43,462 bases of DNA from Bacteroidaceae bacterium (GTDB lineage: Bacteria; Bacteroidota; Bacteroidia; Bacteroidales; Bacteroidaceae). The position numbers were made by a program, and so were the translations under genes. Below the pieces are notes generated by a model. It was not told the DNA's origin. It was given only the letters and a program-made list of their open reading frames with translations, and did not search any database. Positions 4,708-43,462 of the stretch are shown here, one piece after another. The stretch is taken from contig JAFUVE010000083.1 in assembly GCA_017483765.1 (NCBI GenBank), positions 1-43,462 on the forward strand. The letters are read 5' to 3'. Every line of letters starts with the position of its first letter. Position 1 is the stretch's first letter.

Positions 4708-4830
4708 GATTGATATTTACAATTTACTATTTACGATTTACGATTTATTTGACTATTTTTATATTCTGCCATTTGCATGCCAGACGGGGAATGACTTGTA
4801 GAAGTGCAATCCCTTTCATCTTCATCGTTA

Positions 4831-4866
4831 AACTTTAAACTTTCAACTTTAAACTTTAAACTTAAA
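4831..4866. repeat. Short-period tandem repeat (ACTTTAA, 7 bases)
   Basis: About five units of ACTTTAA, one of them ACTTTCA, end just before the stop codon of the amidohydrolase gene. A second AT-rich tract of TTTAC(G/A)A-type units lies at 4712-4748, next to the dehydrogenase start. Together they make up much of the 163-base gap. Confidence 0.6.
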
Positions 4867-4870
4867 AAAG

Positions 4871-5822: not shown

Positions 5823-5850
5823 AGTTGAGAGTTTAGAGTTGAGAGTTTAG
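5823..5850. repeat. 14-base direct repeat
   Basis: Two exact copies of AGTTGAGAGTTTAG stand head to tail just upstream of the amidohydrolase start. Similar GTTGAGAGTTTAGA tracts occur at 37487-37560 and near 16750-16810. Confidence 0.65.
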
Positions 5851-5860
5851 AGTGAAGTTA

Positions 5861-6995: not shown

Positions 6996-7111
6996 ATAGA
7001 GGGGATATAGAGGGTAACAGAAGCCATAGAGATAGAAGCAGCCATAGAAGCGATAGAAATTATAGAGGCTATAGAAAACTATAGAAACTATAGAAGCTAT
7101 AGAAGCCATAA
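6996..7111. repeat. Nonamer array with ATAG, copy 1
   Basis: ATAG or ATA falls at 7044, 7053, 7062, 7071, 7081, 7090, 7099 and 7108, i.e. 9-base phasing with one 10-base step. Less regular units continue up to 6996. The unit is close to CTATAGAAA. It belongs to the 570-base gap between the aldo/keto reductase and sbcD. Confidence 0.8.
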
Positions 7112-7172
7112 AAAATGTAGAGGATAATAAAAAAAATTTGCTGAACATGCATGGCTGCTACAAATATTTTTA

Positions 7173-7371: not shown

Positions 7372-7441
7372 ATAGAAACTATAGAAACTATAAAAACTAT
7401 AGAAACTATAAAATATATAAAAACTATAGAAACTATAAAAA
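7372..7441. repeat. Nonamer array with ATAG/ATAA, copy 2
   Basis: ATA cores lie at 7372, 7381, 7390, 7399, 7408, 7417, 7426 and 7435, strictly every 9 bases. The unit is the same CTATAGAAA/CTATAAAAA as in the array at 6996-7111. It ends 13 bases before the sbcD start. Confidence 0.85.
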
Positions 7442-8687: not shown

Positions 8688-11600
8688 ATGGAGATATTAG
8701 CATTGCATTTGCGGAACATCGCTTCCATCATGGAGGCAGATATCGACTTCACAAAAGACTTGAAGGACGGGGTGACGGACGACCCTGCATCACTGTTTCT
8801 GATATGTGGCGACACAGGAGCCGGCAAGTCAGTAATCCTGGACGGCATATCCATGGCACTGTATAAAACGACGCCGAGAATCACAGGGGTAGCCAACGTG
8901 AGAAACAACAGAATCAATGGTGTAGAAGGCGGGAATGTGCTAATCAACGACATCCGCCAATACACACGTATCGGGATTTCCCATAAGGACCCCTGCTACA
9001 GCGAAGTGGTGTTCCGTGGAAACGACGGAGTCGTCTACCATGCAAAACTGTCGTTGGGATTCAAACGTACGAGAAGTTATAGCGATGCCGTATGGGAAGT
9101 AAAGAAAGGCGACTCCGACTGGATAAGCAGGGACTGTGAAGAGACGATTCTGCAAGCCATCGGACTCTCGTTCAATCAATTCTGCCGTATGGCGATGCTG
9201 GCACAGGGGCAGTTCGCCACCTTCCTGAAAGGCAAGAAAGAAGAGCGTACCGCGATCCTGGAGCAACTGACCAACACGGAACGCTTCACCACCTACGGAA
9301 AAGCCATCACCAGTATCTGCCAGCAAGCAAAAGAAGACAGGAACGCCAAGCAGACACAATATGACACAGAGGCCGCTCACTTGATGACGGCCGAGGAAGA
9401 AGAAAGAGAAAAAGGCGACAGGGATGTGTTTCTCAAGCAAAAGGCATTTGCCGAAGGCCACGTACAGGAAGCCGGGGAACGCCTGAGTCAGCTACAGCAA
9501 CTCATAGACAACCAGTCCATACTTGAAAAGACCCAGGGAGAGATTCATCGCTTGGAAGAGGAACAAAAAAGCGAAGGCTACAAGCTCATGGAAAAACTGA
9601 TAGGAGACTGGGAAAGCACGGTGGAAGTCCGCAGTCATCTTCGTCAGCTGACCTCAGTCCGTAAAGACAAAGCCAATGAGTCAAGAAAGTCCGGAGAGCA
9701 GGCCATGCGGTTCAGTCGTCTGACCGCTGACATTCTCTTTCGCCACGCCCGGCTCCAGGAACTGAGAGAGGAACTGAACAGACAGAGGACATGGCTTGAG
9801 AGCCAGTCCTCCCGAAAGGAGCTGTACGAGAGGTCAGGTTCCTTGGAAGAACAACTCCGGCAATTCCAGCAACTGGCTGACGACATAGCCGACAAGCAGT
9901 CCAAGCTACAAAAAGAACAGGCGAAAACCCCACTTTTGAATAGTGCCGCAGAAAAAGCCAAATCAGAGCGTGACGAAGCCGAGAAAGCCGTAAAATCCAA
10001 AGAGGCATCCATCGACGAACAGAAGAAAATACTCAACGGTTACGATCCAAAGGCCATCAACTCAGCAGTGGAGTCCGAGACCAAGAAGCAGACCACGCTG
10101 GAACATCTTCAAGAAAGATACGCCGAGCTGCAAGAAGTGCAGAAACGGCTTGCTGAGACATTAGCCGGTATTGAGCGCGACAAGGTAAAGTTATCAGGGC
10201 TGCAAACAGAGCGTGATGCCAAGGCAGAAGCCCACCAATCCGCTTCCGAAGCTTACGACAAGGCGAACCGGGAATATTCCACAATGCATGAAAGCGTGGA
10301 AGAGATGCTCGCAGATCTTCGCGCCAAGATTGTTCGTGAGGGAATCAAGACCTGTCCGCTATGCGGTCAGCAGATTGCCTCACAAATTGACATGACAGAT
10401 TTCAACCGTATACTGGAGCAGATAGAAGCGCGTGAAAAAGCAGCATTAAAAGCACGCGACACAGCTTTTGACGCCTTGAAGCAGGCAGAAAAAGCCTTCA
10501 ACAAACTGGCAGCAGAGCTGGATGAGAGAGAAAATGGGAAGGATGGCTATAAGCGTATTCATCAAGAAGCCAAGGATGCTGAGCTGATGCTGCGCGGAAG
10601 CGCTGAAAAGCTTGGGCTCACATACGACGACACCCTCTCCGCTCAGATTTCCGTTTCTTTGGAATCCACAGCCCTCACCATCAGCCAACTGAAAACCCAG
10701 CAAGATTCCGTCATCGCCCTTCAGACGCTCGTCGACCGTCTGTCTGACGAGAAGAAGCCATTAGACAAGGCCTTGAAAGAGGCAGAGAAAATGCTGACGA
10801 AGAGCGAGCAGAAAGTAAGAGACAACAAGCAGGAAATCAGCAGTCTGGAGACTCAGATAAAAGAAAATCAAGAAAAAAAGTCGAGAACATCGGAATCACT
10901 TTCCTCTGCCCTTGCGATGTTCTACCCTCAGTGGGAGTCAGCACCAATGGCCACCAAGACTACCCTCCACGGGGACAGTGCAACCTACCAGCAGAGACAG
11001 CGGGATTACGACAACAGACAGCAAGAAGAACAGAAGCATTCCACGCTGCTTGATCAGCTGGAAGGCATCTGCCAAACATTAGGTGACAGTCATCCGGAAT
11101 GGGCTCACGCAGAGACAGCTGAGTCCTACCCATGCAACGACATACTAAAAGAATGGCAGCGACTCTCAAACTCAGTGGCTGCCACCGACAAGAGCCTCGC
11201 AAATCTCTGCAAAAACGAGTCAGCTTACATGCAATCAATCGCCGAGAGTGGAAGAACAGAGGAGGAGCTGACTTCCATCCAATCGTCCGAGCATCAATAC
11301 GAGCCGTCGAAAAAGCGGGTGAATGGCGTGAGAGACAAGCTGACATCTCTGAGGGGGTCCGTCTCTACCCTCACCCAGCAGATTAAGGTGAACGTGGATA
11401 AACTCGGTATTTCATCTGCTTTAGCAGAGAAAGACGAAAACGGTCTGTCTGGCTTTGAGACATTGCTTCCGTCATACGAGGCAAAAAAAGTCAGTGCTGA
11501 GAATGAGCGGAGTTTTATTGACGGCCGATTAGCGGAGACTGAGACCAAGCTGCGCGAACAAGATAAGAACCGCGAGTGTCTCGCACGTTTCAAGAAAGAG

Positions 11601-12137
11601 CTGGAGGCCGCGACCGAGCGTCTCACCCGTTGGGATATTTTGAACAAACATTTAGGCGGCGACCGTTTCCGTAACATCGTTCAGACCTATGTTCTCCGTC
11701 CGTTGCTGAATATCGCCAACCAGTACCTGGAGCGCATCACCGACCGCTATGAGCTGACCTGCGACGAGAACAACGAGCAGCTGAGCATCCTCGTGCTCGA
11801 CCACTACAACAAGAACCAGGTGCGCAGTGCGACCGTGCTCTCTGGCGGTGAAACTTTCATGATCTCGCTGGCCCTCTCGCTCTCCCTCTCGTCGCTCAAC
11901 GCCCAGGGGATGAACGTGAACATCCTGTTCATCGACGAGGGCTTCGGCACGCTCGACGAGAAGTCGCTCGACAGCGTGATGTCTACGCTGGAGAAGCTGC
12001 AGGACATCGCCGGGCAGAGCCACCGCCGCGTGGGCATCATCTCCCACCGTGAGGAGCTGATGGAGCGGATTCCCGTGAAAATCTATGTGGAGAAGAAAGG
12101 TGAAGGCAGAAGCCAGGTGGTGGTGAAAAGTGAATAA
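8688..12137 (+). CDS. sbcC: SbcC, ATPase subunit of the SbcCD complex
   Basis: 1149 residues, slightly longer than the E. coli protein. Walker A GDTGAGKS lies at 41-48. Long coiled-coil arms surround a zinc hook CPLCG at 556-560 (Cys556, Cys559). The ABC signature LSGGE is at 1051-1055 and Walker B ILFIDEG at 1079-1085, followed by the D-loop segment TLDEKSLD. This is the full SMC/Rad50-like layout. It dimerises through the hook and gates SbcD. It follows sbcD with a 6-base gap and is followed by a hairpin terminator at 12245-12290. Confidence 0.97.
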   Translation: MEILALHLRNIASIMEADIDFTKDLKDGVTDDPASLFLICGDTGAGKSVILDGISMALYKTTPRITGVANVRNNRINGVEGGNVLINDIRQYTRIGISHKDPCYSEVVFRGNDGVVYHAKLSLGFKRTRSYSDAVWEVKKGDSDWISRDCEETILQAIGLSFNQFCRMAMLAQGQFATFLKGKKEERTAILEQLTNTERFTTYGKAITSICQQAKEDRNAKQTQYDTEAAHLMTAEEEEREKGDRDVFLKQKAFAEGHVQEAGERLSQLQQLIDNQSILEKTQGEIHRLEEEQKSEGYKLMEKLIGDWESTVEVRSHLRQLTSVRKDKANESRKSGEQAMRFSRLTADILFRHARLQELREELNRQRTWLESQSSRKELYERSGSLEEQLRQFQQLADDIADKQSKLQKEQAKTPLLNSAAEKAKSERDEAEKAVKSKEASIDEQKKILNGYDPKAINSAVESETKKQTTLEHLQERYAELQEVQKRLAETLAGIERDKVKLSGLQTERDAKAEAHQSASEAYDKANREYSTMHESVEEMLADLRAKIVREGIKTCPLCGQQIASQIDMTDFNRILEQIEAREKAALKARDTAFDALKQAEKAFNKLAAELDERENGKDGYKRIHQEAKDAELMLRGSAEKLGLTYDDTLSAQISVSLESTALTISQLKTQQDSVIALQTLVDRLSDEKKPLDKALKEAEKMLTKSEQKVRDNKQEISSLETQIKENQEKKSRTSESLSSALAMFYPQWESAPMATKTTLHGDSATYQQRQRDYDNRQQEEQKHSTLLDQLEGICQTLGDSHPEWAHAETAESYPCNDILKEWQRLSNSVAATDKSLANLCKNESAYMQSIAESGRTEEELTSIQSSEHQYEPSKKRVNGVRDKLTSLRGSVSTLTQQIKVNVDKLGISSALAEKDENGLSGFETLLPSYEAKKVSAENERSFIDGRLAETETKLREQDKNRECLARFKKELEAATERLTRWDILNKHLGGDRFRNIVQTYVLRPLLNIANQYLERITDRYELTCDENNEQLSILVLDHYNKNQVRSATVLSGGETFMISLALSLSLSSLNAQGMNVNILFIDEGFGTLDEKSLDSVMSTLEKLQDIAGQSHRRVGIISHREELMERIPVKIYVEKKGEGRSQVVVKSE

Positions 12138-12244
12138 TGAATAGTGAATAGTGTATTTACTTTGTGAATAGAGTTGATGGGCGGAATGGACTAAGCAATA
12201 TGGGGTGAAAGGACGGAATGGACATACCTTTCTGACACGAACAA

Positions 12245-37483: not shown

Positions 37484-37486
37484 ATG

Positions 37487-37560
37487 TTTAGAGTTGAGAG
37501 TTTAGAGTTGAGTGTTTAGGGTTGAGAGTGAAGTTGCTTTGAATTCAGCGGAGAGTTTAG
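37487..37560. repeat. GTTGAGAGTTTAGA-type tandem tract
   Basis: Three to four imperfect units of about 14-15 bases fill much of the gap between the TetR and TolC genes. The same sequence type occurs at 5823-5850. Confidence 0.55.
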
Positions 37561-41134: not shown

Positions 41135-41509
41135 TCATAGCATACCGGCAAAGAGATCCTGCATCAGGGGCTCGGCTGCCTCGCTCTTTTTCGGCCGCTG
41201 CAGGCGCGCAGGGTCGAGGTCCTCGTCGTCCCAGTCGTCGAAAGTCAGCTCCAGCTGCACGACAAAATGAGGCTTGAGGGCATACCTCCCCCACCCTCTC
41301 CGCTCGAACGGAGAACGCTTGCGACGGCTTTGCGTCCATAGGAAACGTGAGAGCGAAGCATGGATCCTGCGGAACTTATCCCCTGCGTCGAGGTCAAAGA
41401 GGCTCACCTCCCCGTTGTAGATGTAGCGGGCGATTTTTCTGACACGGAGTCCATCAGGATTATCCATGAGTAGGCGGACCATCTCGTTGTAGTGAGCATT
41501 CTTCATCAC
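41135..41509 (-). CDS. Winged-helix-like small protein (HARE-HTH-like), unknown role
   Basis: 124 residues. Residues of about 8-80 read like a HARE/winged-helix domain: NEMVRLLMDNPDGLRVRKIARYIYN, then FRRIHASLSRFLWTQ, then the wing-like SPFERRGWGRYAL. The remainder is an acidic strand/turn region (DDWDDEDLD) and a short tail LMQDLFAGML. HARE-type domains are linked to DNA binding or chromatin and restriction proteins, but the match is by eye. A perfect promoter ends just 3 bases upstream of the first ATG, so the mRNA may be leaderless or start at Met10 (41482). Confidence 0.65.
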   Translation of the reverse strand: MMKNAHYNEMVRLLMDNPDGLRVRKIARYIYNGEVSLFDLDAGDKFRRIHASLSRFLWTQSRRKRSPFERRGWGRYALKPHFVVQLELTFDDWDDEDLDPARLQRPKKSEAAEPLMQDLFAGML

Positions 41510-41561: not shown

Positions 41562-41569
41562 TAAATTTG
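41562..41569 (+). promoter_or_regulatory. Possible -7 box of the C1 peptidase gene
   Basis: TAAATTTG fits TAnnTTTG, but no TTTG is found 19-20 bases upstream. The leader would be about 130 bases and would carry the GTCAGAC array. Confidence 0.4.
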
Positions 41570-41615: not shown

Positions 41616-41678
41616 GTCAGACGAGTCAGACAAGTCAGACAAGTCGGACAAGTCAGACTGGTCAGACCAGTCCGACTG
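41616..41678. repeat. Nonamer array with GTCAGAC
   Basis: Seven units start at 41616, 41625, 41634, 41643, 41652, 41661 and 41670, exactly 9 bases apart; consensus GTCAGACAA with GTCGGAC and GTCCGAC variants. Units 5-7 can fold through ACTGGTC/GACCAGT. It stands directly before the C1 peptidase gene. Confidence 0.9.
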
Positions 41679-41705
41679 ACAAAAAGCACTCAACTCCACA
41701 TAAAA

Positions 41706-42788
41706 ATGAGACTAAAATTCATCCTTTTCGGACTGCTCTCAGCTGCAAGCCTCACAATGGCAGCCCAAGGCCAAGGACTCCCGAAGTTCACGACTGTAAA
41801 AGCAAACCCGATCACGAGCGTGAAGGACCAGCACCGCAGCGGCACATGTTGGTGTTACGCCACGCTGGGATTCATCGAGAGCGAGATTCTGCGCCAAAGC
41901 GGCAAGACCTACGACCTGTGCGAGATGTTTGTCGTGAACCACGACTACATGGACTGCGCCACCCACCATATGCGCATGCACGGCCTGAGCGACTTCACGG
42001 AAGGTGGGTCGGCCGACGACGTGTTCGACGTGATACGCCAGCACGGCATCTGCCCGGAGGAGGCCATGCCCGCTCCTGGTTCGCTCTGCGGCGACACGCT
42101 GGCTAACTTCACGCAGTTCCACCCCGAACTGACAAAGATGGTGAAAGCATATGCGTCGACAAAGGAGCCACATCCCGACCCGCTGTGGAAAACCACCGTG
42201 CAGAGTTTCATCGACCAGCACGTGGGAGAAAGCCCCAAAGAATTCGTCTATGAAGGCAAGACATACACCCCCCAGACTTTCGCCCAGAGTCTCGGCATCG
42301 ACTGGGACAACTACGTGAGTCTCACCAGCTTCACCCACCACCCCTTCTACCAGGATTTTGTGATTGAGGCACCCTACAAATGGAGGCTGAAGCCCAGCTA
42401 CAACATCCCCGTCGACCAGCTGATGGAGGCGCTCGACCACGCGCTGCTGAACGGATTCTGCGTGGACTGGGGAGGCGACGTGAGCGGAGACTTCTACTAT
42501 GAGGGTATCGCCATGCGCTCTGACTCAGCGGAGGTGACCCAGGAAATGCGGCAGCAGCAGTTCGACGACTGGACCTTCACCTACGACCATGTGATGCTCA
42601 TCTATGGAATCGCCCACGACGAGCATGGAAAAAAATACTACATGGTGAAGAACTCCTGGGGAAACAGGGGACATAAAGGCACATGGTATATGTCGGCCGA
42701 CTACATCAAACTCAACACCACCTACATCTACCTCTGCAAAGACGCCCTGACAGAGAATCTGAAGTCGAGAATAAACAACAGAATGTGA
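41706..42788 (+). CDS. Secreted C1-family (papain/bleomycin-hydrolase type) cysteine peptidase
   Basis: 360 residues with a signal peptide (about 1-20, ending LTMAAQ). The catalytic residues can be placed: Cys48 in SGTCWCYA, preceded by the oxyanion Gln of KDQHRSG; His295 in YDHVMLIYG; Asn316 in VKNSWG. The layout, with DLCEMFVVNHDYMD and an insert before the His, is that of aminopeptidase C/bleomycin-hydrolase-like proteins (C1B), here exported. It probably trims peptides in the periplasm or outside the cell. A 9-base array lies on each side of the gene. A DUF5020 gene follows after 128 bases on the same strand. Confidence 0.92.
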   Translation: MRLKFILFGLLSAASLTMAAQGQGLPKFTTVKANPITSVKDQHRSGTCWCYATLGFIESEILRQSGKTYDLCEMFVVNHDYMDCATHHMRMHGLSDFTEGGSADDVFDVIRQHGICPEEAMPAPGSLCGDTLANFTQFHPELTKMVKAYASTKEPHPDPLWKTTVQSFIDQHVGESPKEFVYEGKTYTPQTFAQSLGIDWDNYVSLTSFTHHPFYQDFVIEAPYKWRLKPSYNIPVDQLMEALDHALLNGFCVDWGGDVSGDFYYEGIAMRSDSAEVTQEMRQQQFDDWTFTYDHVMLIYGIAHDEHGKKYYMVKNSWGNRGHKGTWYMSADYIKLNTTYIYLCKDALTENLKSRINNRM

Positions 42789-42812
42789 AATAAAATTTGA
42801 GATTAGTAAAGA

Positions 42813-42893
42813 GTCCGACCCGTCCGACCTGTCCGACCCGTCCGACCCGTCCGACCTGTCCGACCTGTCCGACCTGTCTGACCTGTCCGACTC
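42813..42893. repeat. Nonamer array with GTCCGAC
   Basis: Nine units start every 9 bases from 42813 to 42885; consensus GTCCGACCT or GTCCGACCC, one GTCTGAC. It fills the gap between the C1 peptidase and DUF5020 genes and is clearly related to the array at 41616-41678. Confidence 0.92.
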
Positions 42894-42916: not shown

Positions 42917-43462
42917 ATGGTAAAAAGATTTTTAGCCGCAGCGCTGCTGACATGCAGCCTGGCAACGCAGGCACAGAACGTGCAGCTGCACTACGACATG
43001 GGCCACACCCTCTACGGAGAACTGAGCGGCCGCCCGAACGTGACCACAACAATCGAGATGTTCAAACCCGACAAATGGGGATCCACATTCCTATTCACAG
43101 ACATCGACTACTATCAGGACGGAGCAGCAGGAGCCTATTGGGAGATTGCACGGGAGTTCAACCTGACAAAGAACAGGCAGTGGGCTGCCCATGTGGAGTA
43201 TAACGGAGGAGCAACAAGCATCGAGCACACACCCGTGGCATCCCGATTCCAGCATGCTCTGCTGGCTGGAGGTGCATGGAACTGGGCAAGCAAGGACTTC
43301 AGCAAGACATTCTCACTGCAACTCATGTACAAATATTATTTCAAGGGCATGAACCGAGGAGCTTTCAACGGATTCCAGGCCACATGCGTCTGGGGAGACA
43401 CCTTCGCCCACGGACTCTGCACTTTCTCTGGATTCCTCGACGTGTGGTACGACAAGGACGTG
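42917..43462 (+). CDS. DUF5020 / Tsx-like outer-membrane protein, 3' truncated
   Basis: The frame starting at ATG 42917 runs open to the right edge (182 codons). A signal peptide (about 1-20, ending LATQAQ) is followed by alternating aromatic/polar strands typical of a beta-barrel: NVQLHYDMGHTLYGE, WGSTFLFTDIDYY, AYWEIAREFNL, ALLAGGAWNW, FSLQLMYKYYF, QATCVWGDTF. This resembles the DUF5020 family, related in form to Tsx nucleoside channels. The end of the barrel lies outside the window. It may be co-transcribed with the C1 peptidase gene. Confidence 0.8.
   Translation, partial: MVKRFLAAALLTCSLATQAQNVQLHYDMGHTLYGELSGRPNVTTTIEMFKPDKWGSTFLFTDIDYYQDGAAGAYWEIAREFNLTKNRQWAAHVEYNGGATSIEHTPVASRFQHALLAGGAWNWASKDFSKTFSLQLMYKYYFKGMNRGAFNGFQATCVWGDTFAHGLCTFSGFLDVWYDKDV

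Follow-up and report, generated by a model that had tools for sequence, protein, structure and literature searches.

GTCNGAC nonamer arrays as candidate dispersed minisatellites in the intergenic DNA of a Bacteroidaceae genome

Two tandem arrays of nine-base units stand on either side of a C1-family (papain-like) peptidase gene in a draft Bacteroidaceae genome, and the question they raise is whether they serve that gene or belong to a wider population of repeats. We examined them in the window, which here means the whole stretch of 43,462 nucleotides that was analysed, as well as in its source genome and in related and distant genomes. Our preferred answer, to which we assign a probability of about 50%, is that they are dispersed long simple-sequence repeats (minisatellites) lying in gaps, with fast unit turnover and no dedicated function for the peptidase gene. 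The family of arrays, its placement, the differences in unit number between sister genomes, and near-fixed arms combined with a free N and a free spacer are direct observations.

The source assembly (G000) is a 105-contig draft of 3.13 Mb (3,134,341 bases; completeness 69.9), and was compared in most detail with a sister of the same genus (G012) and a relative from another genus (G027). Array reading in the source genome drew on 519,611 of its 3,134,341 bases, ~17% of the genome and partly chosen by matches, while period and spacing statistics were computed on 380,381 sampled bases. The reading gave 34 arrays of 4 to 22 units each, 385 units in all, with a finder seeded on two perfect adjoining units, a bias toward intact arms; one array list of this genome omits arrays whose outer degenerate unit still starts with G.

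The peptidase locus and the repeat unit

The first-pass annotation had described two related arrays flanking the peptidase gene, of seven and nine units at an exact 9-base spacing, and these coordinates and counts hold (Table 1). It had further read them as seven GTCAGAC and nine GTCCGAC, which is right for the number of units but not for their composition: five GTCAGAC, one GTCGGAC, and one GTCCGAC in the first array, and eight GTCCGAC and one GTCTGAC in the second. Array 1 sits between a divergent ORF (41135-41509) and the peptidase start, 29 nt away, and array 2 lies 24 nt past the peptidase stop and 25 nt ahead of the next start. A promoter-like element, TAAATTTG, resembles TAnnTTTG, the consensus of the Bacteroidetes -7 promoter element, and if it is a real -7 element, then array 1 would lie inside the 5′ UTR. 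The peptidase has a 97% identical orthologue in the sister genome and is an ordinary neighbour of the arrays. Detection in the window by TRF (score 45 or more) and a lag scan returned four period-9 arrays, the two beside the peptidase gene and those at 7040-7110 and 7372-7441, fewer than the five or more of equal period that had been claimed for these 43 kb; neither method found a separate CTAG array in the window, although one had been reported, and CTAG nonamers are present elsewhere in the genome.

Table 1. Coordinates of the arrays, genes, and promoter-like element in the window
Feature	Positions	Strand	Basis
Array 1, 7 units GTCNGAC + 2-base spacers	41616..41676	.	sequence, TRF, lag scan
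Array 2, 9 units GTCNGAC + 2-base spacers	42813..42891	.	sequence, TRF, lag scan
C1-family (papain-like) peptidase gene, 360 aa	41706..42788	+	Pfam PF03051 2.4e-14, PF00112 7.2e-14
DUF5020 gene, truncated by window end	42917..43462	+	Pfam PF16412 1.5e-66
TAAATTTG, promoter-like element	41562..41569	+	sequence; unchanged in G012
Further period-9 array, ATAG/CTATAG type	7040..7133	.	TRF, lag scan
Further period-9 array, ATAGAAACT type	7372..7441	.	TRF, lag scan

The true unit is a degenerate palindrome, GTC-N-GAC, plus two free bases. Exact three-unit matches number 255 in the 3.13 Mb of the source genome, against 0 for the reversed pattern, and successive GTCNGAC sites (380,381 bases) that are no more than 60 bases apart give 77 spacings, of which 68 equal 9 and six others are multiples of it. 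All four bases occur at N, and in 317 comparisons of adjacent units a difference is seen at N in 55% and at the spacers in 51-52%, as against 0.3-6.6% for the arm columns; transitions account for 150 of the 176 changes at N. Positions 3 and 5 (C3 and G5) each deviate in a single unit out of 385, and positions 1, 2, 6, and 7 in 13 to 22. The within-array pattern of the sister resembles that of the source genome, while the outer columns are looser in the other-genus relative (37% of adjacent units differ at the outer G and 8.5% at the other outer column), because CTC and GAG are frequent endings of its short arrays. By strand type the arrays of the source genome were 17 Y, 9 R, and 2 mixed (n = 28) and those of the sister 10 Y, 10 R, and 1 mixed (n = 21), and no strand preference common to both was found. 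Two candidate rules found no support: avoidance of RY spacers, which are rare in the three genomes (2/278 in G000, 3/150 in G012, and 0/65 in G027) yet common in some others, and a palindromic core as a general property of nonamer arrays, which reaches the 0.05 level in column shuffling for 7 of 9 GTC arrays vs 0 of 7 CTAG arrays.

Placement, turnover, and spread of the arrays

The coding share of the G000 sample is 86%. Because array DNA is stop-poor and lengthens ORFs (unmasked calls place 11/34 arrays inside an ORF in G000, 10/27 in G012, and 16/37 in G027), final ORF calls were made with the arrays masked with stops, and coding was checked by asking for a frame open for 60 codons at either side of the array. 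Such a frame is present on both sides of 2/34 arrays in the source genome, 3/27 in the sister, and 5/37 in the other-genus relative. Coding of a tandem-repeat protein (an SDX reading) found no support in the source genome, given this scarcity of open frames, TAG spacers, and a fixed GAC that does not alternate with GAT, column 7 differing in 3.2% of comparisons vs 55% at N. At one locus (L017, 16475-16616; partner L078 in the sister, 11224-11275), an ORF enters the array and ends shortly after it in both sisters, and as the unit numbers are 16 vs 6, the array may form a variable protein tail.

An ORF on either side was called for 33 arrays of the source genome; the pair is co-directional for 28 of them, convergent for 3, and divergent for 2, where intergenic bases are 70% co-directional, 10% convergent, and 20% divergent. 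The co-directional arrays lie close behind stop codons: for 20 of the 28 the upstream stop is at most 25 nt away or is overlapped (8.7 expected under uniform placement in the gap), and for 3 the next start is that near. Median distances are 11 nt from the stop and 63 nt to the start, and the upstream ORF runs into the array in 4 of the 28. Placement is less biased in the other-genus relative (19 co-directional, 9 convergent, and 9 divergent).

Partners at the same place in the sister were retained for 24 of 34 arrays, after three of 27 flank-matched pairs were dropped since one flank matched over just 32-49 bases; the matched flank stretches, these three pairs included, are 95.6% identical over 9,257 bases. 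A change in copy number on genome comparison, which the first-pass annotation had proposed as a check, is borne out, with unit number equal in 4 and different in 20 of the 24 pairs, and with 7 vs 5 and 9 vs 14 units (G000 vs G012) in the two peptidase-flanking arrays. Such differences in array length between sister species may mislead short-read assembly. End units of the pairs differ at 13/288 arm, 7/48 N, and 34/96 spacer positions; the arms differ from N (p 0.014) but not from nearby intergenic bases (75/1303; p 0.48), and an ungapped count over 15 outer bases (125/720) was set aside as inflated by indels. Strong purifying selection on the arms between species finds no support in this comparison: arm constraint is seen inside arrays, and a between-species excess over intergenic DNA is unsupported.

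Among 60 relatives, three-unit matches occur only in the sister (168) and the other-genus relative (28), and family-wide in 11 of 399 genomes (255, 168, 28, 14, 13, 6, 4, 2, 2, 1, and 1 matches). Composition-matched controls in the same 399 genomes gave CAGNCTG in 2, GACNGTC in 1, and CTGNCAG in 1, one match each, so motif specificity is established for the bacterial family, in which these controls were run. Of 395 genomes drawn Bacteroidota-wide, only the source genome has four-unit matches. One region of another genome (G249:C6:2678201-2688794) holds one and the same three-unit match four times at intervals of 2.6-5.4 kb, which may reflect a repeated larger element.

A five-unit scan of 84,980 species genomes found at least 117 stretches, and among the matches listed there are 144 runs of at least 4 units under 77 assembly labels, 22 of which carry more than one run (where an array is interrupted it may be counted twice). 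The labels among these matches include Lentisphaerae, Verrucomicrobia, Planctomycetes, Hydrogenedentota, Deltaproteobacteria, Chloroflexi, Myxococcota, Sumerlaeota, Bacteroidetes, and others, so that the idea of a repeat-making activity private to this lineage is not supported; most of the matches are MAG contigs whose phylum is taken as labelled, whereas Prevotella ihumii (Marseille-P3385), with ten runs in nine loci, is a named strain. Masked ORF calls, here crude and lenient, place 62 of the 144 listed runs between co-directional, 30 between convergent, and 20 between divergent ORFs, with 29 lacking a neighbour on one side and 3 resembling split genes, and by this lenient test an ORF runs into the array in many cases. 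Of the listed runs, 46/144 have an open frame that extends 60 codons to either side, or 51/144 when four-unit cores are taken, in part because many of those genomes are G+C-rich; roughly two thirds of the runs clearly fall outside long frames, and up to a third may be inside.

Viral contigs gave 69 stretches of GTCNGACNN, 54 of the control CAGNCTGNN, 9 of GACNGTCNN, and 11 of CTGNCAGNN, along with 2 at period 10 and 5 at period 8. As a control the viral contigs are equivocal, and not a fair one, because 60/83 of their GTC arrays have an open frame reaching 60 codons to either side, and several encode collagen-like GPT or SDX repeats. The result nevertheless goes against motif specificity: arrays without a 60-codon frame amount to 23/83 for GTC and 39/60 for CAG, and those without a 30-codon frame to 12/83 and 18/60. 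What sets GTC apart in viral contigs is the degenerate unit, as N varies in 38/83 GTC arrays vs 8/60 CAG, 0/11 GAC, and 0/14 CTG arrays.

Candidate explanations and known systems

The minisatellite reading would work through gain and loss of units by strand slippage or unequal recombination, in which only units with GTC and GAC arms that still pair or align would join the amplification; arm mutants would drop out, and N and the spacer, outside the amplification, would drift. Slippage alone, however, would not lead one to expect a single motif at tens of loci that are unrelated, or the same motif again in distant genomes, and composition-matched units of like pairing potential are nearly absent in the family genomes. 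GTC arms rank 24th of 64 in modelled hairpin energy, as RNA and as DNA, on which hairpin energy was rejected as the reason for GTC; with the matched units nearly absent as well, the strength of pairing is not what singles out the motif. The arms of end units, which diverge no slower than nearby intergenic bases, and the variable outer G of the other-genus relative also count against this reading, and the slippage model does not account for the choice of GTC/GAC, the period of exactly 9, or the recurrence in distant genomes. If repeat biology is all there is, the arrays offer a minisatellite whose fixed and free unit positions are separated, so that amplification and selection could be told apart experimentally.

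Comparison with known repeats places the arrays among the intergenic long simple sequence repeats, as a variant. That class, units of 1-11 nt (Mrazek et al. 2007, via PMC4679880 and PMC4692102), shares with ours the unit length, the tandem order, and a lineage-specific abundance, and both head-to-tail iteration beyond chance and unit-number variation between relatives are found here; its members are perfect or near-perfect iterations, whereas one third of the GTCNGAC unit is free and the rest nearly fixed. We speak of a variant because placement, turnover, and dispersal closely match the GGGAATC heptamers, and because units that differ this often at N and the spacers fall short of near-perfect identity. 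The GGGAATC / GGGGA(C/T)T heptamers form many dispersed intergenic arrays in Xanthomonas and Nostoc and, like ours, lie closer to the 5′ neighbouring ORF, mostly in co-directional gaps, are under-represented between divergent ORFs, and recur at the same genes in related species with varying length and sequence (PMC4692102); they differ in having period 7, G-quadruplex formation, and a strand preference near ORFs, against a period of 9, a palindrome, and three free positions per unit. TAACTGA direct repeats of Beggiatoaceae, Cyanobacteria, and Bacteroidetes (PMC4679880) are likewise one short tandem intergenic motif, patchy over distant lineages, but are an exact heptamer found mainly beside start codons in the best-studied genome, in contrast to a degenerate nonamer mainly behind stop codons. 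The BrickBuilt MITE minisatellite of Porphyromonas gingivalis (PMC4596501) is also intergenic and from Bacteroidales, and P. ihumii arrays too lie within inverted repeats; its unit is 23 nt, and around the arrays of the source genome no inverted repeats were seen. REP elements and GTAG- and CGTC-tagged palindromes (PMC3733652, PMC12306157) are short palindromic intergenic DNA in many copies, but are tagged stem-loops of 20-40 bp where ours are 9-bp tandem arrays. The earlier view that no described system is of this kind may stand for the unit itself, since none of the papers listed by the literature search, 20 of 549 for the search by sequence, describes a GTCNGAC nonamer in its title or abstract, but not for the type of repeat, as similarly placed long simple sequence repeats are described in two reports (PMC4692102, PMC4679880).

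Among the alternatives, we consider it rather unlikely that the half-sites GTC/GAC, as TCNGA or GACNNGTC palindromes, are bound with a 9-bp register by a sequence-specific protein; this putative protein would insulate, silence, or organise short gaps and be patchy in distribution or horizontally moved. The specificity of the motif against three composition-matched controls in the 399 family genomes, a palindromic unit with no consistent strand preference, the near-invariance of C3 and G5, and the strict register are all consistent with such a protein. Yet no candidate protein emerged from a search that covered the IS200-type transposase, the arrays are seldom near starts, unit number varies freely between sisters, and viral contigs hold the control CAGNCTGNN nearly as often as GTCNGACNN; 3-bp half-sites at a distance of 1-2 bp would, moreover, be very dense for known dimeric binders. 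That up to one third of those in other genomes may fall within frames weighs against this reading and against the form of it that follows. In that related form, GTCNGACNN arrays would be a recurrent element read by a widespread putative factor through GTC/GAC half-sites in a fixed 9-bp register, which we hold to be unlikely, and the same doubt attaches to its corollary that the arms are kept in gaps of several phyla while N, spacers, and unit number drift. Should a factor indeed read the arrays, they would represent a new kind of dispersed binding array common to several phyla.

The first-pass annotation had also suggested transcript-end structure, and long, regularly mismatched hairpins in transcript-end or intercistronic RNA could act as terminators or protect mRNA 3′ ends, an explanation that we judge improbable and for which the tests gave no support. 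The arrays do lie close behind stop codons, and in the two window arrays each of the four strands folds more stably than shuffles (z -3.9 to -6.3), although the palindromic pattern alone would give this stability. Complementarity between mirror units (N and spacers), on the other hand, is at chance level in G000 and G012 and suggestive at most in G027, where the observed level is attained by 87 and 81 of 1000 shuffles. In each of the three genomes, complementary neighbouring N are scarcer than after shuffling within arrays. Flank complementarity around the arrays is at chance in G000 and G012 and weak in P. ihumii, neither window array has an intrinsic terminator (a stem-loop followed by a T run), Rfam gives zero matches at the arrays, and strand preference is not consistent between genomes.

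Least probable of all, in our view, is that the arrays are remnants or cargo of a MITE or REP-like mobile element spread by a transposase: a minisatellite within a MITE is known from P. gingivalis (PMC4596501), and in P. ihumii the left arm AACCCAAATC is found at 7/9 loci, 6 of which also have the right arm GATTTGGG, but flank complementarity around the arrays of G000 and G012 is at chance, orthologous array flanks match between these two genomes, the IS200-type transposase (PF01797) is unmatched in array-bearing G027, G168, and G207, and in G000 it is not near the listed arrays (the array list being incomplete). PF01797 has 2 matches each in G000, G012, and G269, and also occurs in 7/10 array-free genomes searched. 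No empty site was found at the one locus examined in genus mates, and those that carry the peptidase are not syntenic at the window locus. As specific candidates, REP/RAYT finds no support in the form of the repeat, a 9-bp tandem array and not a single tagged stem-loop, or in the Y1 transposase, unmatched in three array-bearing genomes, and MITE terminal inverted repeats find none in G000 and G012, where they are at chance level, though present at 6/9 P. ihumii loci. At those P. ihumii loci (L128, L135, L161, L171, L212, and L240), the GTC array lies inside a long inverted repeat, AACCCAAATC...GATTTGGG, and at L135 and L240 it stands directly behind a terminator-like hairpin as judged by eye.

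Neighbouring repeats of other periods

The first-pass annotation had asked for a genome-wide excess at lag 9 and had treated the arrays as being of equal period. The excess is present in the source genome, both in the count against the reversed pattern and in TRF results for 380,381 bases, where 125 arrays include 22 of period 9, whereas a single first-order Markov resample gave 3 arrays, all periods counted. Equal period does not hold, as period 7 (n = 37) outnumbers period 9, and of the other periods that were to be compared in number, 7 is thus commoner, while 8 (n = 9) and 10 (n = 2) are rarer. In this TRF sample 9 of the 22 nonamer arrays are GTCNGAC, and 10 of the 13 others have common CTAG or CTATAG-like cores by eye. 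In 100-kb samples, two genus mates have 12 period-7 and 0 period-9 arrays (G006) and 12 and 2 (G007), and a genome of another genus (G014) has zero arrays of period 7 to 10; from the counts in the two mates we infer that heptamers are the older genus trait and the nonamer excess the newer.

Period-7 arrays in the window lie at 4715-4747, 4821-4867, 5823-5853, 12123-12153, and 37486-37529 (ATTTACG, TTAAACT, AGTTGAG, GTGAATA, and GTTGAGA), and some GTC arrays directly adjoin heptamer arrays, e.g., at L021 and L043. Nonamer arrays with a constant CTAG, usually a rare tetranucleotide in bacteria, and a locus-specific filler were seen at L016 9343-9385, L017 238-307, L020 993-1023, L025 4416-4477, L029 34-63, L030 15306-15351, and L033 12489-12538. 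Period-8 arrays of the AAGACNAG type occur at L016 204-237, L017 5708-5737, L023 3657-3690 and 15944-15969, L024 9008-9034, and L025 70-103, and similar flanks (CTATCGTC...AAAAC) in most of these six suggest that they may be a dispersed element. In the other-genus relative, TCAGCTGA palindromes and CCTTATTG units stand beside GTC arrays at the intergenic loci L089, L091, and L095. Other arrays in array-bearing genomes (L149 4365-4475 and 6227-6261; L141 2067-2103; L192 5075-5146 and 6498-6574) comprise CCGGAANNC and TCCGGATAT nonamers in a Prevotellaceae MAG and GTCCGTACAA and CCCATCCGTA decamers in Lentisphaeria/Lentisphaerae.
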